NCBI RefSeq assembly: GCF_018476525.1
Contig: NZ_JAHCST010000038.1
Location: forward strand, 1-64,000
Source: Acrocarpospora catenulata
GTDB taxonomy: Bacteria; Actinomycetota; Actinomycetes; Streptosporangiales; Streptosporangiaceae
Direction: 5' to 3'
Length of the DNA: 64,000 bases
Below the pieces are notes generated by a model, which had not been told where the DNA came from, made no database searches, and worked only from the letters and a program-made list of their open reading frames with translations. This document shows, one piece after another, positions 16,459-64,000 of the stretch. Position 1 is the first letter of the stretch. Each line of letters opens with the position of its first letter. The position numbers and the translations under genes are program-made.

Positions 16459-17424
16459 TCACGACACGGCTCCCCTGTGGGAGGGGCCGTGGGGGGCGGC
16501 GCAGTGCGCCGCCTCCGTCGTGCCGACGGTCAGCAGTTCCGCGGGGGCGTGGTCGACCTGGAGAGTGGTGTGGTCGATGCCGTACTGGTCGTGGGCGAGT
16601 CGTTCGGCGGCGAGGCGGACCGCGTGGCAGTCGGCGCCGGGTTCGACCAGGATGTGCGCCGACATGGCGGGGTAGCCCGAGGTGACCTCCCAGATGTGCA
16701 GGTCGTGTACTTCGACGACCTTGTCCAGGGCGGCGGTCCTGGTGCCGATCTCGGTGGGGTTCATGCCGGCGGGGGCGGCCTCCATGAAGACCCGGCCCGC
16801 GTCGCGGACCAGGCCCCACCCGGCCTTGAGCATGAGGGCGGCCACGACCAGGGCGGCGAGGGCGTCGGCGCGGCCCCAGCCGGTGAGCCAGACGATCGCT
16901 CCGGCGATGGTGGTGGCGATGAAGGCGAACAGGTCGTTGAGGATGTGCTGGTAGGCGCCTTCGACGTTGAGGCTGCTCCGGTTGGCCTTGGACAGCAGCC
17001 AGGTGGCCGCGATGTTCACCGCGATCCCGGCCAGGCCGGTGACGACCACGTACAGTCCCGCCACTTCGGGAGGGTCCACGATCCGGCGTACGCCTTCGAC
17101 GACGAAGTACACACTGAGCAGTAGCAGCGTGATGCCGTTGATCTGGGCGGAGATGATTTCCGCGCGTTTGAGGCCATAGGTGAAGCCTCCGCGCGGCGGG
17201 CGGGCGGAGATGCGCATCGCGATCAGGGCGAAGACGATGGCGATGGCGTCGGTGAGCATGTGCCCGGCGTCCGAGATCAGGGCCAGGGACTGGGCGATGA
17301 CGCCGACCACGACCTCGACCGCCATGAAGGCGACGATCAGGATGAGCGCACCGGTCAGGTAACGGCGGTCGGTTTCCGCCCTGACCCCGTGACCGTGTCC
17401 GTGCTGGTGGCCGTGGTCAGTCAC
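16459..17424 (-). CDS. Cation diffusion facilitator (CDF) metal efflux transporter
   Basis: A 321-residue proton-coupled exporter of divalent metals such as Zn or Co. The His-rich N-terminus (TDHGHQHGHGHG) is followed by six membrane segments. The metal site shows as SDAGHMLTDA in TM2 and HILND in TM5. The C-terminal cytoplasmic domain contains VVEVHDLHIWEVTSGY, typical of ZitB/CzcD-like CDF proteins. I start at GTG 17424 because AAGGAGT lies 8 bases upstream; an in-frame GTG at 17442 has no such site. It is divergent from the His-rich peptide and ZIP-like genes, with two candidate metal-regulator operators between, so repression by an ArsR- or Fur-type sensor is plausible. Confidence 0.93.
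   Translation of the reverse strand: MTDHGHQHGHGHGVRAETDRRYLTGALILIVAFMAVEVVVGVIAQSLALISDAGHMLTDAIAIVFALIAMRISARPPRGGFTYGLKRAEIISAQINGITLLLLSVYFVVEGVRRIVDPPEVAGLYVVVTGLAGIAVNIAATWLLSKANRSSLNVEGAYQHILNDLFAFIATTIAGAIVWLTGWGRADALAALVVAALMLKAGWGLVRDAGRVFMEAAPAGMNPTEIGTRTAALDKVVEVHDLHIWEVTSGYPAMSAHILVEPGADCHAVRLAAERLAHDQYGIDHTTLQVDHAPAELLTVGTTEAAHCAAPHGPSHRGAVS
16465..16491. terminator. Hairpin at the MFS/CDF convergent junction
   Basis: CACGGCTCCCC and GAGGGGCCGTG flank a short TGTGG loop, forming a GC-rich imperfect stem that overlaps the 3' end of the CDF gene. It could stop transcripts from both convergent genes. Confidence 0.45.
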
Positions 17425-17443
17425 CGTTCCACTCCTTAACACT

Positions 17444-17457
17444 TGAACCCATGTTCA
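17444..17457. promoter_or_regulatory. Inverted repeat TGAAC-N4-GTTCA upstream of the CDF gene
   Basis: Five-base arms TGAAC and GTTCA lie 20 bases before the CDF start. The TGAAC/GTTCA half-site resembles operators of ArsR/SmtB-type metal sensors. The function is inferred. Confidence 0.4.
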
Positions 17458-17501
17458 CATGTTGGAGTGTGGCGGGAGTGCTGCGTGCTGTCAACGCATG
17501 A

Positions 17502-17517
17502 ACATCTGATCAGATGT
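17502..17517. promoter_or_regulatory. Perfect 16-base palindrome between CDF and His-rich peptide genes
   Basis: ACATCTGATCAGATGT is fully self-complementary and sits in the divergent promoter region, 85 bases from the CDF start and 68 bases from the His-rich ORF start. Its position and symmetry suggest the operator of a dimeric regulator controlling both directions, for example a metal sensor. No regulator gene is adjacent. Confidence 0.6.
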
Positions 17518-17584
17518 GTAAACGCTGAGTGATTGGCTATCTACCCTCCGTGATGACCGCCGGGTTATCCCCAGGGAGGCAGCC

Positions 17585-17731
17585 ATGACCCATACCCACC
17601 ATCATTCGCACGCCGGAGATGCGGAAATCCACGACGTCCACGAACACCACGTGGACGCGGAACACGAGGAAACCGGCGCTGATCAGTGTGTCGGCCTGCC
17701 AGATCAGGACGGTTGCTGCGCGACGGAGTGA
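17585..17731 (+). CDS. Small His-rich putative metal-binding protein (48 residues)
   Basis: A 48-residue ORF with AGGGAGG nine bases before ATG 17585. It begins MTHTHHHSHAGDAEIHD and has ten histidines in the first 27 residues. The middle is acidic, and three cysteines lie near the end (C35 and CC at 44-45). There is no signal peptide or membrane segment, so it is predicted to be cytoplasmic. It lies 73 bases before the ZIP-like gene on the same strand and faces the CDF exporter across a palindrome, which fits a metal buffer or chaperone for Zn, Ni, Co or Cu. I recognise no family. It was found by direct reading and is below common ORF length limits. Confidence 0.7.
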   Translation: MTHTHHHSHAGDAEIHDVHEHHVDAEHEETGADQCVGLPDQDGCCATE

Positions 17732-17804
17732 AGTTACCCGGGGACCGTCGCCCCCGGCGGTCCCCCTCAGAACGGTCTTTCCGCTGGCAGGACGGAGGAG
17801 AACC

Positions 17805-18995
17805 ATGCGCACGTCCGGATGGACGCATTTGATGAGCCCGGCATTGGAACCCGCCCTTGAGGGACGATCGTCAGGGGTGTCGGTGTGGCTGGCGGTCGTC
17901 TTGATCTCGTTGTCCACCCTGGCCGGGGCTTGGCTGGCCAGAAGGAAGTCCCGGCAGGTCACCGCCTTGCTCTCGGTCGCGTCCGCACTGATGCTGGTCA
18001 CCGCGTTGATCGACATGCTGCCCGATGCCTGGCAGGAGGCGAGCGAGACCGGCGTCCCGCTGTGGGCGCTGGGGTTGGCGATCGCCTTTGGCTTCCTGGT
18101 CATCACCTATTTCACCCGCAAGGGTTGCGGACACGGTCACGGGCACGAGGACGGCGCACCGGCCGCGGGCAGGCACCGGCCCGGCCTGCACCGCCGGGTC
18201 AAAGAGGTGGTCAGCGCCACCGTCTTCGGCGGCGTGGGCACCGCCGCGGCACTGTCGGTCCACCGGGCGGTCGAAGGCGCGACGCTCGCTCTGACGGCGT
18301 CGGCCGTGGTCGTGATCGCGCTCATGGTGCATTCCACCAGCGAAGGGCTGGCCCTGACCGCGCTGCTGGACATGGCCAAGCAGCGGGTGACCCCGTGGCT
18401 GACGGTCTCCTGTGTCAGCCCTGCGGTCGGCGTCCTGATCGCAACGGTCCGCCCTATACCTCCGCAGGTGGAGCCCATTCTGATCGGCGTGGTGGCCGGC
18501 GTTCTCCTGCGTACCGCCGTGGTGGGCATCAAGCTGGCGGCCAGCAGGCAGCAGGATGGGCGGCTGCCCCGGCGGCACATCGTCAGCGCCCTCCTCCTGG
18601 CCGGGATCTTGGCGGTGCTCATCGGCGCCATGCGCTGGATGCCCACCGACCAGGCCGAACAGGCACAGGTCTCCCTCGGGCAGACCATGGCCCGCCTGCC
18701 GTCGCCGGCGAGCTCGCCACCGGCCTCGTTCACTCCTCAGAGCAGAGAGGAACTACGGGCGGCGCTGGCCTCAGGGCAACTGAGTGTGGCCGAGGTGCTG
18801 GCTCGTACCGACAAGCTGACCACGGGCACCTACATCGGATGGCTCCTGCGCGGCCTGCCCGGCTACCAGCCGGCCGAGGTCAGGACACTGCTGTCCGCCA
18901 AAGGCATCGAGTTCACCCGCCCTGTCGGTGAGCTCACCCAGTCACAGCGGGCCTATCTCATCGATGCCGTCGCCTCTCGGCGAAAGGTTGGGTGA
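17805..18995 (+). CDS. ZIP-like membrane protein fused to a C-terminal sIHF-like domain
   Basis: A 396-residue protein with about eight membrane segments between residues 20 and 300 and a His-rich loop (CGHGHGHEDG, ~108-117) between segments 3 and 4, the ZIP layout. TM4 holds HRAVEG and TM5 holds HSTSEG, a weakened version of the ZIP metal motifs. After a Ser/Pro linker, residues ~314-396 (LSVAEVLAR, YIGWLLRGLPGY, LTQSQRAYLIDAV) line up with the actinobacterial integration host factor pattern of a helix, a LL..LPG turn and a final RxLG.xQR.ALL helix. That family is a cytoplasmic nucleoid DNA-binding protein, so the fusion is odd. GGAGGAG precedes ATG 17805 at ideal spacing. It probably moves or senses a divalent metal; DNA binding is inference. 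Confidence 0.75.
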   Translation: MRTSGWTHLMSPALEPALEGRSSGVSVWLAVVLISLSTLAGAWLARRKSRQVTALLSVASALMLVTALIDMLPDAWQEASETGVPLWALGLAIAFGFLVITYFTRKGCGHGHGHEDGAPAAGRHRPGLHRRVKEVVSATVFGGVGTAAALSVHRAVEGATLALTASAVVVIALMVHSTSEGLALTALLDMAKQRVTPWLTVSCVSPAVGVLIATVRPIPPQVEPILIGVVAGVLLRTAVVGIKLAASRQQDGRLPRRHIVSALLLAGILAVLIGAMRWMPTDQAEQAQVSLGQTMARLPSPASSPPASFTPQSREELRAALASGQLSVAEVLARTDKLTTGTYIGWLLRGLPGYQPAEVRTLLSAKGIEFTRPVGELTQSQRAYLIDAVASRRKVG

Positions 18996-19476
18996 TAAGG
19001 ACGCCTTCGGGAATTTTCTCGTATCTGCAATACCGGACATTGCGATAACCCAACTTTCCGACGTGCGGCGTCAATGACCTTCGGCGCGTACAAAGGCCAA
19101 TCTACAAGATCACGGGGAATCGGCTGGTTTACCGCCGGGGGTGGTTCTCCGTGGTCAAATGGATGGTCGGTCACCTTGTCGGGTTTCAGCGGGGGCGCAC
19201 GTCCGGCGTGGCGATCTTGTTTCGGGTATTCGCGTGACTACTTTGTGTGTCGGGTGTCGCCTGACTTATCAGCTGAATCGCTGGAAGAAGAATATGTGTA
19301 ATCTCCGCCGACCCGGCGCTTTTGCCATGCTCGCCTTGGCATCGGCGTCCGTCGCCCCCTGCGCCTTCCCGTGGGCGCGACCACTCCCGCCGGCACCAAC
19401 CGCGGCCGCACTCCCTGACGTCACACCCTGCCGCAGGCCCTATCGTCCCGGTACGGCCTGCGGCGCGAAAAGCCGG
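18996..19476. other. Intergenic stretch without a supported gene
   Basis: A 481-base gap between the ZIP-like gene and the LuxR gene. It is less GC-rich than its surroundings. Short ORFs exist on both strands, but none combines a ribosome site, sensible codon use and a recognisable product. The only structure I see is the hairpin at 19430-19464. Confidence 0.6.
19430..19464 (-). terminator. Terminator hairpin after the LuxR-type gene
   Basis: GCCGCAGGCC and GGCCTGCGGC form a perfect 10-base-pair stem around a 15-base loop, beginning 13 bases after the LuxR gene stop on the minus strand. Confidence 0.65.
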
Positions 19477-50356: not shown

Positions 50357-51535
50357 GTGGCGGCACTTGACCCGAAGGCGATGCGGCAGGCCAACGCGGA
50401 AACCGTGCTGGGCACCCTCTACGAGCACTCGGTCGTCTCGCTGGCCCAGCTCACCGCCCGTACCGGACTGTCCAGGCGGACCGTCGAACTCATCCTCACC
50501 GACCTCGACGACCGGGACTGGATCCAGACCCACCCGCCCGACCCGCAGGCCAACGGCCGGGGCCGCCCCGCCCGGCTCTTCTCGTTCCGCGACGACGCCG
50601 GCATGGTTCTCGGCGTGGACATCGCGCACGGCCACTGCGCCGCCGCCGTCGCCGACCTGCGTGGCGTCGAACTCGCCCGGCGGGTGCTCCCCGTCCGCGG
50701 CGAACCCGGCCGGGCCGAACGCCTGGACCTGGCCCGGGAGGCCATCGCGCAGGCTCTCGGGGCGGTCGGCCTCAGCCCCGGCCAGATCGGCGCGGTCGGT
50801 GTGGCCACCCCCGGCAACGTGGACGACCGGGGCATGGTGGCCGTCCGCCTGTCCATGCGCGACTGGATGGGCGTCCGGCTCGGCGCGGAGTTCGCCGCCG
50901 ACTTCAGCTGTCCCATCCACGTCGAGAACGACGCCAAGCTGGCCGCGCTGGCCGAACTCCGCGAAGGCGCCACCCCCGGCGCCGACCACATGCTCTGGCT
51001 GATGCTCGAGGGCCGCCACAACGGCCTCGGCATCGTCGTCAACGGCACCCCCTTCCGCGGTGTCGACGGCGCGGCCGGAGAGATCTTCTGGGCCAAGGCA
51101 CTCGGCCTGGACGACCTCAGGACCTCCCCGCTGATCGGCCTCGGCCGCCTTCAGCCGGAATCCCGGCGCGCCGAGGCCGCCGCCCTGCTGGCCCGCGCCC
51201 ACACCGGCGACCCCGCCGCCCTCGCCGAGGTGCACCGCTTCGCCGCCATCCTCGCCCGCGCCCTGTCCACGCTCAGCTGGACGCTGGCCCCCCGTCACAT
51301 CGTCCTGGGAGGTTCCCTCACCTGGGCCTTCGGCGACCTGCTCACCACCACCGTCAAATCCCTGCTGACCGACGCGCCTCCGTTCGTCACCGTCCATCGC
51401 TCCGCCCTCGGCGACTCGGCCGTCCTCCGCGGCACCATCCGCACCGCCCTGGACCACTTCGACTGGACGACCACGACACCGGTCCGCTTAGCCCGGCAGG
51501 AAGGTGTCCGCGCCCATGCAGACGAAGCCGGCTGA
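50357..51535 (+). CDS. ROK-family transcriptional repressor
   Basis: A 392-residue sugar-responsive repressor. The N-terminal winged helix (LYEHSVVSLAQLTARTGLSR, RTVELILTDLDDRDW) is followed by a ROK fold (VLGVDIAHGHCAAAVADLRG, VGVATPGNVDDRG, DGAAGEIFW). The zinc motif CxCGxxGC of ROK sugar kinases is missing, which supports a regulator over an enzyme. GTG 50357 follows AGGAGG at ideal spacing. It is the last gene of the sugar operon and probably represses it until the glucoside binds. Its 3' end overlaps the convergent CHAT gene by 48 bases. Confidence 0.92.
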   Translation: MAALDPKAMRQANAETVLGTLYEHSVVSLAQLTARTGLSRRTVELILTDLDDRDWIQTHPPDPQANGRGRPARLFSFRDDAGMVLGVDIAHGHCAAAVADLRGVELARRVLPVRGEPGRAERLDLAREAIAQALGAVGLSPGQIGAVGVATPGNVDDRGMVAVRLSMRDWMGVRLGAEFAADFSCPIHVENDAKLAALAELREGATPGADHMLWLMLEGRHNGLGIVVNGTPFRGVDGAAGEIFWAKALGLDDLRTSPLIGLGRLQPESRRAEAAALLARAHTGDPAALAEVHRFAAILARALSTLSWTLAPRHIVLGGSLTWAFGDLLTTTVKSLLTDAPPFVTVHRSALGDSAVLRGTIRTALDHFDWTTTTPVRLARQEGVRAHADEAG

Positions 51536-53887
51536 GGCGGTGCGATGGTCGGCCTGGGTCTGGGCGAGGGCGGCGGCCGCCGAGAGGCCGGACAGGAGGA
51601 GGCGGTGCAGGGTGACCATCATGGCGGCGGTCGCCGCGTCGGGGACCGACACCACGGGAGCGATGATCGTCCGGGTGCCGAGGCTGAGGAAGGTGGCGCT
51701 CAGGCCGAGCAGTTCGTCGCCCGTGCGCACCACTGAGCGGCCGCTGTCGCAGGCGGCCAGCACGACCATGCGGGGCGCGTGACGCAGGCCCTCCAGGTCG
51801 TAGATGGTGAGCGGGCCGTCGGCCAGCCGGAGCGAGGAGAACAGCGGGTTGCTGCCGTGCAGGCGCCCGTGCGCCGCCAGGTGGGCCAGGCGGGCACCGT
51901 CCAGGGCGGAGAGCACCCGGGCGGCGGTGGCGCGGGGACCGGTCAGCGGGCGGTCGCCGAGCTGACCGGCCAGCGGGCCGAGCAGGATGGCGTCCAGCCT
52001 GCCGGTGGCGTCGGTGAGCATCGCCTCGGCCGCCGCCCGGCTGGCGGCGGGCGCGCGGCTGTTGAGGCGGCGCAGCGCGAACGGAATGCGATCGATCAGA
52101 TCGCCGACCGGGGTCAGCGGCGCGAGCGGCGTCGTACGCAGGCGGCCGTCCACCAGCGTCACCGCGTGCAGGTGGTTCTCCACCTGGAAGTACTCGACCA
52201 GCGCCTGGCCGTCCAGCGCCTCGCGCAGGGCCGCGACCGGGACGGGCGCGGCGGGACGGGCGGCGGCCCCGGACGGGGGCAGGCGGCGGGAGAGGTCGCG
52301 CACCTGGCGTTCCAGGGCGATCTGCCGCTCGACCAGCGGCCCGCGCGCGGCGCCCGCCTTGTTGAGGCGGCTCATGGTGGTACGCAGCTCGGCGAGCGCC
52401 GCGGTCAGCGCGGGATCCTCCGGCGCCCGGGCCGGGCGGATCATCAGGTGGCTGGCCCGGCCCTGCTCGGCCCAGTGGAAGACCCGCTCGGGCCGCCCCC
52501 GCCGTACGGCCATGCGCAGGCCGAGCGCGGTCAGCTCGGCCCGGTACTGGAAGCCGTACCCGCGCAGGTCGGTGGCGGTCAGGGTGGCCCGGTGCTCGTC
52601 CAGGATCCGCAGGCCGGACCGTACGGCCGCGTACGCGCCGCGCGGGTTGCCCCGCTCGCCCCGGAGCAGCGCCTCGGCGTGCCAGCCCCGGCTGCGCAAC
52701 AGGGCGGGCCCCCGCAGCCGGGCCGTGGCGGCGCCCTCCAGCTGGCGGCGGCCCCGGTCGCCGTGACCGCGCGCGAACGCCAGCCGGGCGGCCAGCAGCC
52801 GCGCCTCCACCTCCCCGTGCGGCCAGCCCGCCGCCGCGAGCCGGTCGGCGCTCCGTTCGAGCGCGCCCAGCAGGCCGCGGCCGTCCGGCTCCTGGAAGGT
52901 CCGCGACCGTAACACCGCGAACTTCGCCAGAGCCGACCATTCGGGGCGGCGCTGGCGGGCCAGTTCCGCCACCGCCCTACGGCCCTCCGCGAGCGCGCGC
53001 TCGTGGTCGCCCTGAAGGGTGGCGGTGCGGGCCAGCAGGAGCCGTACCTCGGAAAGGCCGATCATCCGGTCCCGGCGGCGCAGCTCCTCGACGGACTGCT
53101 CGGCGGCGGCCCTGGCCTCGGTGACCAGGCCCGCCGAGAGCAGCAACTCCGCGCGGTCGTGCAGCAGCCACCCCAGCTGGTGCGTGCCCAGCGCGCGGAA
53201 GCGCTCCTCGGCGGCGTCGAAGTGGCCGAGCGCGGTGGGCACGTCCCCGCGCTGGGCGCTCACCCAGCCGAGGTTGAGCCGGACGACGGCCAGCGACAGG
53301 TCCAGGCCGAGCGCCTCGCAGAGCGCCTGCGCCTCCCGCAGGTCGGCCTCGGCGGCGGCGAACCGGTGCTGGTAGCCGTACACGATGGCGCGGTTGGACA
53401 GCACGCGCTGCAGCCAGACGTGGTCGCCCGCGCGGCGCAGCGCGGGGATGACGACCCGGTAGACGGCCAGCGCGTCCTCCCGGCGCCCCAGGTGGTTGTA
53501 GACGGCGGCGCGCTGGGCCTCGCCCCGCGCCCTGGCGGCGCCGTGCAGGTCGGGCAGGGCGGCCTCGATCTCGCGCAGCGCGACCTGGGAGCGCCCGCGC
53601 AGGCTGAGCACGAAGGCCAGCCGGATGCGCGCCTCGGCGGCCAGCGCGGGGGAGTGGGCCCGGCGGGCCAGCGCCATCGCGGCGCGCTGGTGGGCGGCGG
53701 CGGTGCGCAGGTCGTCGAGGTGGTGGGCGGCCACGCCCAGGGCGCGCTCCACGACCGAGAGCAGAGCCAGATCCCCCCGCTCCCGGGCGGCGGCGCTCAC
53801 CTCGGCCGCGGTCCCGGTCAGGCGGGCGGGGTCGTCCTCCGCGAGGCGTAACAGCTCATCGCCGAGATCGAGGGCCGTCGTCTCCAC
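51488..53887 (-). CDS. TPR-CHAT caspase-like protease
   Basis: A 799-residue protein. Residues ~30-460 are repeated helical hairpins of TPR type (for example AEAQ-like ALCEALGLDLSLAVVRLNLG and DVPTALGHFDAAEERFRALG). The C-terminal third is a CHAT domain, a separase/caspase-fold cysteine protease. The catalytic pair is visible as His673 in AHLAAHGRLHGS and Cys713 in VVLAACDSG, followed by GDELLGLSATFLSLGTRTII. There is no signal peptide, so it acts in the cytoplasm. In known systems the TPR part is the regulatory or target-binding surface. It is divergent, by 103 bases, from an operon with a subtilisin, an ECF sigma factor and a beta-rich protein, which suggests one proteolytic signalling module. 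It starts at GTG 53887. Confidence 0.9.
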   Translation of the reverse strand: METTALDLGDELLRLAEDDPARLTGTAAEVSAAARERGDLALLSVVERALGVAAHHLDDLRTAAAHQRAAMALARRAHSPALAAEARIRLAFVLSLRGRSQVALREIEAALPDLHGAARARGEAQRAAVYNHLGRREDALAVYRVVIPALRRAGDHVWLQRVLSNRAIVYGYQHRFAAAEADLREAQALCEALGLDLSLAVVRLNLGWVSAQRGDVPTALGHFDAAEERFRALGTHQLGWLLHDRAELLLSAGLVTEARAAAEQSVEELRRRDRMIGLSEVRLLLARTATLQGDHERALAEGRRAVAELARQRRPEWSALAKFAVLRSRTFQEPDGRGLLGALERSADRLAAAGWPHGEVEARLLAARLAFARGHGDRGRRQLEGAATARLRGPALLRSRGWHAEALLRGERGNPRGAYAAVRSGLRILDEHRATLTATDLRGYGFQYRAELTALGLRMAVRRGRPERVFHWAEQGRASHLMIRPARAPEDPALTAALAELRTTMSRLNKAGAARGPLVERQIALERQVRDLSRRLPPSGAAARPAAPVPVAALREALDGQALVEYFQVENHLHAVTLVDGRLRTTPLAPLTPVGDLIDRIPFALRRLNSRAPAASRAAAEAMLTDATGRLDAILLGPLAGQLGDRPLTGPRATAARVLSALDGARLAHLAAHGRLHGSNPLFSSLRLADGPLTIYDLEGLRHAPRMVVLAACDSGRSVVRTGDELLGLSATFLSLGTRTIIAPVVSVPDAATAAMMVTLHRLLLSGLSAAAALAQTQADHRTASAGFVCMGADTFLPG

Positions 53888-53990: not shown

Positions 53991-55280
53991 ATGACCATCG
54001 CCCAGCTTCCTGTCACCACCGACCGAGAGACCTACCACGCCGACCAGCTCGTCGTCGAGCGCGCCCACCGCGACCTGGTCGTCAAACTGATCGTCGAATG
54101 GGGCGGCGAGACGGCCGTCGCCATCGTGGACGACAGCCCGGCCCTCGGTCTGTCGCTGCTGTCCGTGCCCGGCCTGACCGCCGCCGAGAACACCCTGCGG
54201 CGCGTCGAGGGCCTGGCCGAGGCCGCCACCAAGGAACGGCGCGGCTCGTACGCGACCGACATCGAGCCGCTCGACCTGCTGCTGTACGCGCTCCGCGAGC
54301 ACGCCCGTACCGCCTACGACGGCTGGCAGCCGACAATAGGCAAGCACCGGCTGGTCGAGGGGGTGGAGGCTCGGCCGTACACGGGCGGGGCCGACGGCAG
54401 ACCCGAGGCGCTGAGCGCCCCCCTCATGTTGCCCGAGCGGCCGGAGCCGTCCGGGCCACCCATCAGGGTCGCGCTCCTGGACACCCGGGTCGCGCCCCTG
54501 GCCGCGCTCGACGGCCGGTATCTGGCGTCCGGGCAGGCCGTGCTGCCGCGCACGCCGACGGGTGCCCTGCCACCGATGGCGGGACACGCCACGTTCATCC
54601 TTGGGCTCATCCTCCAGCGGGTGCCCGGCGCCGACGTGCTGGTCCGGCCGGTGCTGGACGACACCGGGTTCGGCACCAGCTCCTGGGCCGTGGCCAAGGC
54701 CATGGCGGAGTTGCTCGACGCCCGGATCGACGTGGTCAACCTGTCCTTCGGCTGTTTCACCGTCGACCGCGAGGCGCCGCTGGTGCTGGCCCGCGCCGTG
54801 CAACGGCTCGCCGCCCGCGCCGTGCTCGTCGCCGCCGTCGGGAACCACGGCGCGGAGGATGCCGGTAGCCCCGCCAAGGTCACCCCGACGACGCCGATGT
54901 GGCCCGCCGCCTGCGACGAGGTCGTCGCCGTCGGAGCCTTCGGGACGGGCGGGGCGAAGCAGGCGGCGAGATTCTCCCCGCAGGTGCCGTGGACCGACCT
55001 GATGGCGCCCGGCGAGCACGTCCAGAGCCTCTTCCTGGACGGGTACGTCAACCTGCCCGCCACCAAGGAGCACGCGGCCAAGACCGCGCTGTTCACCGGC
55101 GGTGCGACGTGGAGCGGCAGCTCCTTCGCCACGGCCGCCGTGACCGGCGCCGTCGCGGGCCTGGCCGCCGAGCGGGGCATCGACGCCCACGCGGCCATGG
55201 AGGTCCTACTCCGGCGAGGTGTCGACCCGGTCCGCGGCAGCGGCTATGAAGACATCGAGCCATTCGACCCAGTCAATTGA
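53991..55280 (+). CDS. Intracellular S8 (subtilisin-like) serine protease with novel N-terminal region
   Basis: A 429-residue subtilisin-family protease. The triad is complete: Asp164 (VALLDTRVAP), His199 (AGHATFILGL) and Ser378 (WSGSSFATAAV), with oxyanion Asn285 (VGNHG). There is no signal peptide and no recognisable I9 propeptide. Instead residues 1-155 form an uncharacterised acidic domain (QLVVERAHRDLVVKLIVEWG, DIEPLDLLLYALREHARTAY). It should therefore work inside the cell. ATG 53991 follows GGAGAG. It is the first gene of the operon with the ECF sigma factor and divergent from the CHAT protease. Either protease could activate the other or cleave the 155-residue protein; this is inference. 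Confidence 0.9.
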   Translation: MTIAQLPVTTDRETYHADQLVVERAHRDLVVKLIVEWGGETAVAIVDDSPALGLSLLSVPGLTAAENTLRRVEGLAEAATKERRGSYATDIEPLDLLLYALREHARTAYDGWQPTIGKHRLVEGVEARPYTGGADGRPEALSAPLMLPERPEPSGPPIRVALLDTRVAPLAALDGRYLASGQAVLPRTPTGALPPMAGHATFILGLILQRVPGADVLVRPVLDDTGFGTSSWAVAKAMAELLDARIDVVNLSFGCFTVDREAPLVLARAVQRLAARAVLVAAVGNHGAEDAGSPAKVTPTTPMWPAACDEVVAVGAFGTGGAKQAARFSPQVPWTDLMAPGEHVQSLFLDGYVNLPATKEHAAKTALFTGGATWSGSSFATAAVTGAVAGLAAERGIDAHAAMEVLLRRGVDPVRGSGYEDIEPFDPVN

Positions 55281-55301
55281 CTCACCACCTTGGGAGAGCC
55301 C

Positions 55302-55904
55302 ATGGCAGAAGACTCGACCGTCGCCGACCTGGTGGTAAGGGCCAGGAAGGGCGACCAGGACGCATGGGATCAACTCCTTGACCGGTACAACCCGTTCATC
55401 CTGGCGATCTGCCGCCGTTACCGGCTGAGCCGCGAGGACATGAACGACGTGGCCCAGACCGTGTGGTTGCGCGCGGTCCAGAAACTGGGGTCCCTGCAGA
55501 CCCCCGGCGCCTTTCCCGGCTGGCTGGCGACGGTCACCCAGCGGGAGTGCCTGCACACCGCGCAGGCGGCCCGCAGGCGGGACGGGGGCGAGTACTTTGT
55601 GGACTTCGACAGGAGTCCGGACGAACAGGCGGCGATGGTGGGGCGGGAACTGGAGCTGGCCGAGCTGCGTGCCGCGCTCCGGGCGGCGTTCGCGCAGCTC
55701 CCACCGCGGTGCCGGGAGCTGCTGCTCCTGCTCATGCGGGACGAGCCGATGGCGTACGTGGAGATCGCCGAACGGTTGCGCATGTCCGTCGGTGGGATCG
55801 GCCCGACCCGGGGTAGGTGCCTGGAGCGGCTCCGGCAGAGCCCGTACCTGATGGGTTTTCTCGGCCCTGAGGCCGATGATGTGGGGAGCGGCGGCGATGG
55901 ATGA
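55302..55904 (+). CDS. ECF-type RNA polymerase sigma factor
   Basis: A 200-residue sigma factor with region 2 (WDQLLDRYNPFILAICRRYR, DMNDVAQTVWLRAVQKL) and region 4 (LPPRCRELLLLLMRDEPMAY, VEIAERLRMSVGGIGPTRGR). No anti-sigma factor with a zinc finger or membrane segment is next to it. ATG 55302 follows GGGAGAG. It lies 21 bases after the protease gene, and its stop overlaps the next ORF by eight bases. Its targets probably include this operon. Confidence 0.95.
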   Translation: MAEDSTVADLVVRARKGDQDAWDQLLDRYNPFILAICRRYRLSREDMNDVAQTVWLRAVQKLGSLQTPGAFPGWLATVTQRECLHTAQAARRRDGGEYFVDFDRSPDEQAAMVGRELELAELRAALRAAFAQLPPRCRELLLLLMRDEPMAYVEIAERLRMSVGGIGPTRGRCLERLRQSPYLMGFLGPEADDVGSGGDG

Positions 55905-62222: not shown

Positions 62223-63590
62223 TCAGCCGGCCGCCGGCCGGTTCCACAGTTTGGTGACGGTGCCGGTGACCGGCCCGGCGGCCGCGGAGGGGCCGGAACC
62301 CATGCTGACCATGATCGGCTTCTTCGGGAACGCCGTCGCGCCGGACTTGATCTGGTAGTCGACCTCGGTGGTGAGCAGTCGCGGCCGGCCGGAGGCGAGG
62401 ATGAGGGCGAGCGTCGTTCTGATCTGCAGATCCGCGAACGACGCCCCCAGGCAGCGCCGCTGGCCGACGCCGAACGGCAGGAACGCGTACGGCGAGGGCC
62501 GCGCATCGGTCCAGCGCGACGGCAGGAAGGCGCCGGGGTCGGGGAAGGCCACCGGATCGCGGTGTTCGAGCAGCGGCGCCGCGAAGGCCAGCGCGCCGGC
62601 CGGGATCGGCGGCGCCCCCTTGATCTCGACCTCCCGCGTCACCCGTCGCGGCAGCGAGAGCGGCACGGTCGGAATCAGCCGCTGCGACTCCCTGACCACG
62701 GCGTCCAACTGCTCCTGGTCGGAGACCTCCAGGCCAGGCGTCCCGAGGATGGTCAGCAGGGCCCACGTCATGGACATCGCGGTGGTCTCGAACCCGGCCA
62801 CGAACAGGCCGTGCAGTTCTCCGGCGATCTCCGGCGTGGTCAGCGAGTCGCCGTTCTCGTCGATGGTGTGGCAGAGGATGGACAGCGCGTCCCGGCGGGG
62901 CTCCTCGGCGCGCTTGCGCTCGATGATCTCCGCCAGCCGGTCGTACACGCCGGCGACCTGCCGGGTCCACCTCCCGTACGGGGTCCAGGCGCGTTCCTGC
63001 TGGTACATGAAGACCATCGGGTTCAGCGTGGCCTGGAGGAGCCGGTGGACGGCGTGGGCCAGCCGGACGTTCTCCTCGTCCGGTTCCAGGCCGAGCAGGC
63101 AGATGAGCATGTTGGCGCGGGTGATGTCGAGGAACTCGGCCACCATGTCGAACGGCTCGCCGTCGGCCGCCGCGAACCTGGTCCGCTTGAAGGTGACGGC
63201 GAACACCTCGGCGTAGTGCTCCATCGCGCTCTTGTGCACGATCGGCATCAGCAGCTTGCGCGCACGGCGGTGCTGTTCCCCGTTGAAGGTGAGGACGGCG
63301 TCGAACATCCGCGACCAGGGCCGCCCTTCCGGGAGCGTGAAGAGGCCGTCGCTCAGCCGATGGAAGACGTCGTTGTCGGTGAAGTACCGCCGGACCGCCT
63401 CCTCGCCCCTGAGCAGGACCACCGATCCGTTCCCCCGGGTCAGCGGAACGACCGGCCCGGGATGCTCCGGTGCGATGCGATCCAGCACGTACCAGGCGGG
63501 GTGCCGGAGAAAACGGAGATTATTGAGGACAGGAATCCCACCGGGCCCTGCCGCGTCCACCCGCAGCGCGGTGTCGAACATTTTCGCCAT
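62223..63590 (-). CDS. Cytochrome P450, probable RiPP tailoring enzyme
   Basis: A 455-residue soluble P450 with no membrane anchor. The I-helix oxygen-binding motif is FVAGFETTAMS (~271-281), the K-helix is VVRESQRLIP, the PERF-like segment is FLPSRWTD, and the heme-binding loop FLPFGVGQRRCLGASF places the thiolate at Cys380. It is transcribed in the same direction as two Cys-rich precursor-like peptides that end 136 bases upstream, separated by a hairpin. P450s in RiPP pathways form carbon-carbon, carbon-nitrogen or ether crosslinks or hydroxylate side chains. The substrate link is inferred from gene order. Confidence 0.92.
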   Translation of the reverse strand: MAKMFDTALRVDAAGPGGIPVLNNLRFLRHPAWYVLDRIAPEHPGPVVPLTRGNGSVVLLRGEEAVRRYFTDNDVFHRLSDGLFTLPEGRPWSRMFDAVLTFNGEQHRRARKLLMPIVHKSAMEHYAEVFAVTFKRTRFAAADGEPFDMVAEFLDITRANMLICLLGLEPDEENVRLAHAVHRLLQATLNPMVFMYQQERAWTPYGRWTRQVAGVYDRLAEIIERKRAEEPRRDALSILCHTIDENGDSLTTPEIAGELHGLFVAGFETTAMSMTWALLTILGTPGLEVSDQEQLDAVVRESQRLIPTVPLSLPRRVTREVEIKGAPPIPAGALAFAAPLLEHRDPVAFPDPGAFLPSRWTDARPSPYAFLPFGVGQRRCLGASFADLQIRTTLALILASGRPRLLTTEVDYQIKSGATAFPKKPIMVSMGSGPSAAAGPVTGTVTKLWNRPAAG

Positions 63591-63687
63591 GCTTCACGCA
63601 TCCGTTCCCTCGTGGGGAGCGTATGCGCCCGGCAAACCGTCATCAAGGAGGTAAATGTTGCTTCCGGCTCACCTGGGACGGAAAAGC

Positions 63688-63713
63688 GGAGTGAGCCACG
63701 ACGGGCTCACTCC
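63688..63713 (-). terminator. Hairpin between RiPP precursor and P450 genes
   Basis: GGAGTGAGCC and GGCTCACTCC form a perfect 10-base-pair stem with a six-base loop, starting 12 bases after the first precursor stop. Such stem-loops commonly act as partial terminators that keep precursor transcripts more abundant than enzyme transcripts. Confidence 0.7.
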
Positions 63714-63725
63714 GGGGAAGGAGAA

Positions 63726-63857
63726 TCAGATCTCCAGCTTCGTCGCGGCCACGCACGTCTTGAGTGCGCACGAGGTCAAACCGCAGGTCAGCTGGCATGG
63801 CCGTAGGCCCGTTCCCTCTGCGGGAAAGAGCTCCAGCGCTCGAATGTCGATTTCCAT
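63726..63857 (-). CDS. Putative RiPP precursor peptide 1 (43 residues)
   Basis: A 43-residue peptide. Its leader is MEIDIRALELFPAEGTGLRP (residues 1-20). The core has four cysteines (21, 25, 30, 35) interleaved with Thr/Ser as CQLTCGLTSC then ALKTC and a tail ending TKLEI. ATG 63857 follows AGAAGGCAGGAC. It shares LEL[FL]PAExxGL[RK]PC with a second peptide 34 bases upstream. Short length, acidic leader and Cys/Thr-rich core are the hallmarks of lanthipeptide- or sactipeptide-like precursors. No lanthionine synthetase or radical SAM gene is in the window; the downstream P450 is the only visible enzyme. I cannot name the family. Confidence 0.7.
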   Translation of the reverse strand: MEIDIRALELFPAEGTGLRPCQLTCGLTSCALKTCVAATKLEI

Positions 63858-63890
63858 GTCCTGCCTTCTTTCCGGGACGGAATTCTTGTG

Positions 63891-64000
63891 CTAGTCGTTA
63901 CGGCTCATGCGGGTGTAACCGGGAATACAGGTGAACCCGCAGGTACCCCCTGGCCTGCACGGCTTGAGCCCGTCGATCTCGGCCGGCAGCAGTTCAAGCG
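63891..64000 (-). CDS. Putative RiPP precursor peptide 2 (partial, N-terminus beyond window)
   Basis: The last 35 codons of a second precursor-like peptide before TAG at 63891. It reads LELLPAEIDGLKPCRPGGTC then GFTCIPGYTRMSRND, with three cysteines. The leader motif matches peptide 1 (LEL-hydrophobic-PAE, GL-basic-PC), while the core differs in length and sequence, the usual sign of a conserved leader with variable cores. Its start lies beyond base 64000. Confidence 0.65.
   Translation of the reverse strand, partial: LELLPAEIDGLKPCRPGGTCGFTCIPGYTRMSRND

Follow-up and report, generated by a model that had tools for sequence, protein, structure and literature searches.

Class IV lanthipeptide systems, which rely on a LanL synthetase, are the closest described relatives of the locus considered here. 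A lanthipeptide survey lists 815 clusters and 401 precursors of class IV, 83% of which are the sole precursor of their cluster, and the portion of the survey consulted states that precursors were drawn from the neighbourhood of the synthetase and mentions nisin-like precursors outside the neighbourhood analysed (PMC7268733). A different arrangement is found among the prochlorosins (class II, ProcM/SyncM), where one synthetase is accompanied by precursor genes scattered among unrelated genes, according to the sections of the account drawn on here (PMC10783134). Ribosomally synthesized and post-translationally modified peptides (RiPPs) that depend on a cytochrome P450, such as the biarylitides, atropopeptides and aminopyruvatide, have a small precursor gene beside a P450 gene in the parts of their descriptions used here, as does the present locus. 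No case of scattered class IV precursors was found among the matches listed in the open literature; with this, and with the scatter of prochlorosin genes already known, the locus is not presented as a new RiPP class.

The window analysed (the whole stretch of 64,000 nucleotides from Acrocarpospora catenulata) ends on its right side in two tandem small ORFs of the minus strand, A1 and A2, followed by a hairpin and a P450 gene. In an initial annotation they had been taken as Cys-rich RiPP precursors modified by the P450, with the rest of the cluster expected past the right edge of the window. The comparisons reported below, all made at the level of sequence, indicate that A1 and A2 are probably class IV lanthipeptide precursors and that the P450 beside them is probably just a neighbour.

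Results

Both precursor ORFs are intact (Table 1), the stop codon of A1 lying at window position 63891 and its ATG at contig position 64019, which is 19 bases beyond the window edge. They lie where the initial annotation had placed them, and its description of a common leader with unlike cores holds: the two leaders are identical at 12 of 21 positions and the cores differ. There are four Cys residues in A2 and three in A1, several of them immediately preceded by Thr or Ser, and the cores of both contain the Ser/Thr and Cys residues from which (methyl)lanthionine could be formed. A2, the one of the pair that was scanned, was assigned to no family in Pfam or NCBIfam. When used as a query against its own genome, A2 recovered A1 at 5e-4 and three copies on another contig, C35, at 2.5e-7 to 2.5e-4, with additional weaker matches from 0.03 upward. 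Judged by these scores, the leader likeness of A2 to A1 and to the C35 copies is beyond chance.

Table 1. Features near the right edge of the window, inside and just beyond it (window positions unless stated otherwise)
Feature	Position	Strand	Details
Cytochrome P450, 455 aa, whole ORF	62223-63590	-	Pfam PF00067, 167 bits
Conserved block upstream of P450	63591..63672	-	kept in 5 Acrocarpospora genomes
Terminator-like hairpin after precursor pair	63687-63714	-	11 pairs, -21.8 kcal/mol
Precursor A2, 43 aa, MEIDIRALELFPAEGTGLRPCQLTCGLTSCALKTCVAATKLEI	63726-63857	-	intact ORF
Parts of A2: leader MEIDIRALELFPAEGTGLRPC and core QLTCGLTSCALKTCVAATKLEI			3 core Cys beyond the Cys that ends the leader
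Precursor A1, 42 aa, MNVDVNSLELLPAEIDGLKPCRPGGTCGFTCIPGYTRMSRND	63891..64000 (part in window)	-	profile match 1.4e-14
Repeat element of A1	contig 64062-64080, outside window	-	43 bases before ATG

The three C35 precursors with the A2-type leader are flanked on one side by an S9 (prolyl oligopeptidase family) peptidase and on the other by two ABC transporters; further upstream is a synthetase with RamC_N, kinase and LANC_like domains (Pfam). In NCBIfam this synthetase scores 1094 bits as a LanL (cut-off 650) and 459 bits as a class III enzyme (cut-off 575). It has the lyase, kinase and LanC domains of a LanL and passes the curated cut-off; it is also the only protein of its genome to do so among the 50 of 77 candidates that were scored. 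Motifs of the WCxG and CHG types, which we take to hold zinc ligands, occur together in 39 of 40 LanL-like ORFs. Since the sole LanL above the cut-off sits on C35, A1 and A2, on contig C114, are not in its gene cluster, and the gap between them is at least about 79 kb, as estimated from the lengths of the two separate draft contigs and their places on them. The lanthionine synthetase that the initial annotation had suggested looking for past position 64000 does exist in the genome, on a different contig. A second lanthionine synthetase, of class III (1041 bits, cut-off 575), is encoded on C107 (L210 6064-8595) and adjoined by ABC transporter genes; the surrounding 15 kb gave no precursor of the family (best match 0.29). 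This class III enzyme could in principle act on A1 and A2 instead.

With leader sets chosen by hand, the leader of A2 is identical to that of C35 precursor 1 at 18 of 21 positions, and the leader of A1 matches those of C35 precursor 3 and the third precursor of the A. macrocephala cluster at 15 of 21. The A2 core (CQLTCGLTSCALKTCVAATKLEI) also resembles the core (CELSCGLVSCVLKTCVAATKIEV) of precursor 3, the last in the LanL cluster of A. macrocephala, with all four Cys residues kept. A2 and its relative in that cluster differ by 12 synonymous and 14 replacement codon changes, giving a dN of 0.25 and a dS of 1.31 over 43 codons, the latter being near saturation; the comparison of dN with dS points, weakly, to A2 being under constraint. 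The initial annotation's view of the pair as RiPP precursors, in which the leader is conserved and the Cys/Thr-rich cores vary, is supported, and they fit a class IV lanthipeptide precursor family.

A five-row profile of the precursors matched 28 of 341 genomes of the bacterial family. With a 34-row profile the number was 34, the matches in G287 and G336 being chance-like. Because both profile searches score about 20 candidates per genome, and one further search 2, the counts are lower bounds. Fifty loci were read, two of A. catenulata itself and 48 stretches surrounding profile matches, the latter of 20 kb at most. These gave 81 local profile matches, of which 78 were counted after removal of L088 (the same gene as L179) and of L191 and L192 (chance-like Cys-rich frames); the count includes the doubtful L189 11272-11715, while the match at G119:C6:217907 was not recovered in the local scan, and L087 and L089 are first-profile matches unconfirmed by the better profile. 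With a LanL-like protein defined as one scoring over 400 bits to the C35 synthetase, 72 of the 78 plausible members, own genome included, have such a synthetase in the same stretch. A1 and A2 thus carry the leader of a family whose precursors lie beside a LanL.

Only six of the 78 lie in stretches without a LanL-like protein, and they come from three genomes: A1 and A2, the A. macrocephala members on C81 and C13, and the G326 members on C4 and C68. The C81 orphan is 3 kb from its contig end, and the C68 contig of G326 is just 14 kb long. The two LanL-free stretches of G326 (L071 and L178) belong to a genus other than Acrocarpospora. One protein of A. macrocephala, on C42, exceeds the LanL cut-off (50 of 82 candidates scored), whereas A. 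corrugata has none above it (best 378 bits) and its best precursor match is 0.34. A. phusangensis has a further LanL locus (G003:C23), outside the count of 78, at which three weaker members lie beside a LanL-like gene. A search across the taxonomic order, covering 345 genomes that are nearly all from this one family, added one weak match. The cores of the two A. macrocephala orphans (L059 9706-9828 on C81 and L060 9534-9682 on C13) look eroded; by eye, one of the two is next to a small secreted-protein-like gene and the other follows a LacI-type regulator gene.

The hairpin reported between the precursors and the P450 is real, none of 200 shuffled sequences being equally stable (z -5.9), and a pattern scan of the 800-base region around it found 2 terminator-like sites where shuffles gave 0.5. 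Stems of like design lie behind A2, C35 precursor 3, the last precursor on C42 of A. macrocephala and the C81 orphan; the first three stand out in the shuffle test (0/200 each) and that of C81 does not (18/200). Upstream of A1 is an element of direct repeats, TGGAACNNNrTGGAACGCC, with a 10-bp period, which also precedes the LanL genes of C35 and A. macrocephala and the C81 orphan. The 10.3-Mb genome of A. catenulata has 4 exact matches to the repeat pattern at 3 places (the LanL operon, A1 and one other gene) and 7 with at most one mismatch; a reversed control pattern has none there and three across the genus. No promoter was predicted upstream of either A1 or the P450 in a simple sigma-70 scan, and for this reason the repeats are treated here as a putative promoter element.

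The possibility that the repeats mark a private lanthipeptide regulon was considered and rejected, since the motif also stands before other genes. Genus-wide it precedes many unrelated genes (e.g., G000:C116:136261-136299; L118-L147), and by eye, from the 30 of 66 listed sites that were read, these encode secreted proteins (often), regulators and proteins of no recognizable kind.

By eye, the C81 orphan resembles the sequence preceding LanL for some bases past the repeats before changing to the start region of a precursor, which suggests that it is a copy of the operon after loss of the enzyme genes. A1 and A2 could have the same origin and be relics, no longer modified or used, and this is a fair alternative because the two A. 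macrocephala orphans look eroded. The layout of element, precursors and hairpin at the A1-A2 locus does resemble a LanL operon from which the enzyme genes are missing, much as C81 still shows a trace of the pre-LanL sequence. On the other hand, both ORFs, their start regions, the repeat element and the hairpin are intact, and A2 retains the four Cys residues of its cluster relative with dN below dS, so that we regard decay to relics as unlikely.

The P450 gene beyond the hairpin is a whole ORF and has a conservation of its own. It is present in all 5 Acrocarpospora genomes examined, at 86-90% identity in the other four (A. macrocephala, A. phusangensis, A. corrugata and A. pleiomorpha), and six more orthologues, in two other genera and at 70-75%, were found among 150 genomes of the family. 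None of these 10 other orthologues has a flanking precursor match at 0.01 or better (best 0.08), the flanks read being 11-20 kb stretches for seven of them and about 1.5 kb per side for three. A profile of 5 P450 orthologues and a haem-motif scan detected no P450 in the other 49 stretches read, of which 45 have a plausible precursor. The DNA similarity of the four Acrocarpospora relatives stops at one same base (L005 1672, equal to window position 63672), 15 bases short of the hairpin, and this shared end places the precursors outside the conserved P450 unit. The block between that base and the P450 start is putatively the promoter region of the P450 itself.

The initial annotation had the P450 crosslinking or oxidising the Cys-rich cores of A1 and A2. 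The genes do adjoin on one strand, P450s that act on RiPPs are known, and the best NCBIfam match of this one is such an enzyme, ApyO; however, that match reaches 163 bits, far short of the cut-off of 525. Searches of the PDB with the P450 gave no relative at 1e-30 and, at 1e-5, 432 sequences of which the best 60 are led by CYP51 entries below 100 bits, an uninformative result. The co-occurrence of leader and P450 in related genomes, by which the annotation itself had proposed to judge the matter, came out against it, none of the 10 orthologues having a precursor in the flanks read and none of the 49 other stretches a detected P450. The leader family, moreover, resides beside LanL, and a hairpin and a conserved upstream block separate the precursors from the P450. 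On the orthologue comparison and this boundary the proposal was set aside; we consider it very improbable, and the P450 is probably a bystander, an unrelated neighbour of the precursors.

A mixed scheme was also weighed, in which ring formation falls to a lanthionine synthetase acting in trans and the P450 next to the precursors oxidises these two peptides only. Adjacency in one orientation would allow the genes to be expressed together by read-through of the hairpin, but the P450 occurs in all five Acrocarpospora genomes, including one that has neither a LanL above the cut-off nor a precursor, which implies that the older role of the P450 is something else, and the other stretches have no detected P450. 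Such a scheme seems to us scarcely credible.

Contig C114 is 84,041 bases long. To the right of A1, where the remainder of a RiPP cluster had been predicted, it encodes, among others, an epimerase-like protein in convergent orientation, a LacI regulator, glycoside hydrolases and the products of a sugar ABC operon. Pfam named no RiPP enzyme among 14 chosen proteins from this side, all encoded before the final 2 kb of the contig (L006), nor any lanthipeptide, YcaO or radical SAM enzyme among 14 chosen window proteins from 42.9 kb on, and the idea of a maturase near the pair was dropped. In relatives, the P450 is found apart from the epimerase, and the LacI-ABC block apart from both, indicating that A1 and A2 stand where pieces were rearranged.

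Two gene groups elsewhere on the contig may be recorded here. Beyond the window, an EACC1 (effector-associated) gene (L005 17014-17406) overlaps a caspase (Peptidase_C14) gene (17399-19216) whose C-terminal half is PP2C-like by eye, and the two are perhaps a conflict-type effector pair. Within the window, genes for a CHAT-TPR protein, a subtilase (Peptidase_S8) and a sigma-70-like protein lie side by side (51488-53887, 53991-55280 and 55290-55904), possibly another conflict-type locus.

Discussion

This study focused on a pair of small precursor genes that would have been easy to assign to the P450 gene beside them. It is likely, in our judgement, that A1, A2 and the hairpin form a satellite mini-operon of class IV lanthipeptide precursors on whose products the C35 LanL acts in trans. 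The sequence basis for this is their membership of the precursor family, the repeat element and hairpin design shared with the LanL operon, the presence of a single LanL above the cut-off, and P450 orthologues that are free of precursors. There are counterpoints to the satellite reading: the repeats are a wider motif of the genus, the two A. macrocephala orphans have an eroded appearance, and the C81 hairpin is ordinary when compared with shuffles.

From these observations we infer a sequence of events in which the repeat element would act as promoter. Transcription would start behind the repeats and give an A1-A2 message ending at the hairpin, and the C35 LanL would then recognise the A1 and A2 leaders in trans. 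By the chemistry of known class IV enzymes, it would phosphorylate Ser and Thr residues of the cores, eliminate the phosphate and add Cys to form (methyl)lanthionine rings, after which the S9 peptidase of C35 may trim the product and its ABC transporters export it. The P450 downstream would stand apart from this unit, as a gene preceded by a conserved stretch of its own.

Compared with described class IV systems, the C35 cluster and most of the relatives read are alike in having the precursor family beside LanL, an S9 peptidase and ABC exporters. A1 and A2 differ in being encoded on a contig other than that of the LanL, where no modifying enzyme was seen near them, and there are several precursors per genome here, unlike the mostly sole precursors reported in the consulted portion of the survey (PMC7268733). 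The prochlorosins share with the present case a conserved leader, variable cores and scattered precursors with one synthetase, as far as the sections used here describe them (PMC10783134). They differ in using a LanM, in belonging to another leader family and in having dozens of precursors, whereas here the enzyme is a LanL, the satellites are few and modification in trans is our proposal. Of a prochlorosin-like dispersal, the scatter of precursors and the single LanL above the cut-off are seen directly, and a class III synthetase is present as well. From the P450 RiPPs, in so far as their descriptions were available, the locus is set apart by its LanL-linked leader, by a P450 whose orthologues in 10 other genomes are free of precursors in the flanks read and by an ApyO score far below the cut-off. 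The case is also a warning that a precursor gene adjoining a P450 does not on its own count as evidence for a P450 RiPP.

More generally, Acrocarpospora may have non-autonomous mini-operons dispersed over unrelated sites, each combining the element found before the LanL operon with one or two precursors and a terminator of like design, that are served by one LanL in trans, a tentative extension whose chances we place a little short of even. The present locus offers a cheap and direct way to ask whether distant substrates are handled in trans by a class IV synthetase. Since the lanthipeptide survey, in the portion consulted, took its precursors from the synthetase neighbourhood, satellites of this kind would be missed and the diversity of class IV undercounted (PMC7268733). 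If the proposal is true, an actinomycete would have a ProcM-like arrangement of one enzyme and dispersed substrates, built on another class of enzyme, and its satellites would arise as copies of the operon lose their enzyme genes.
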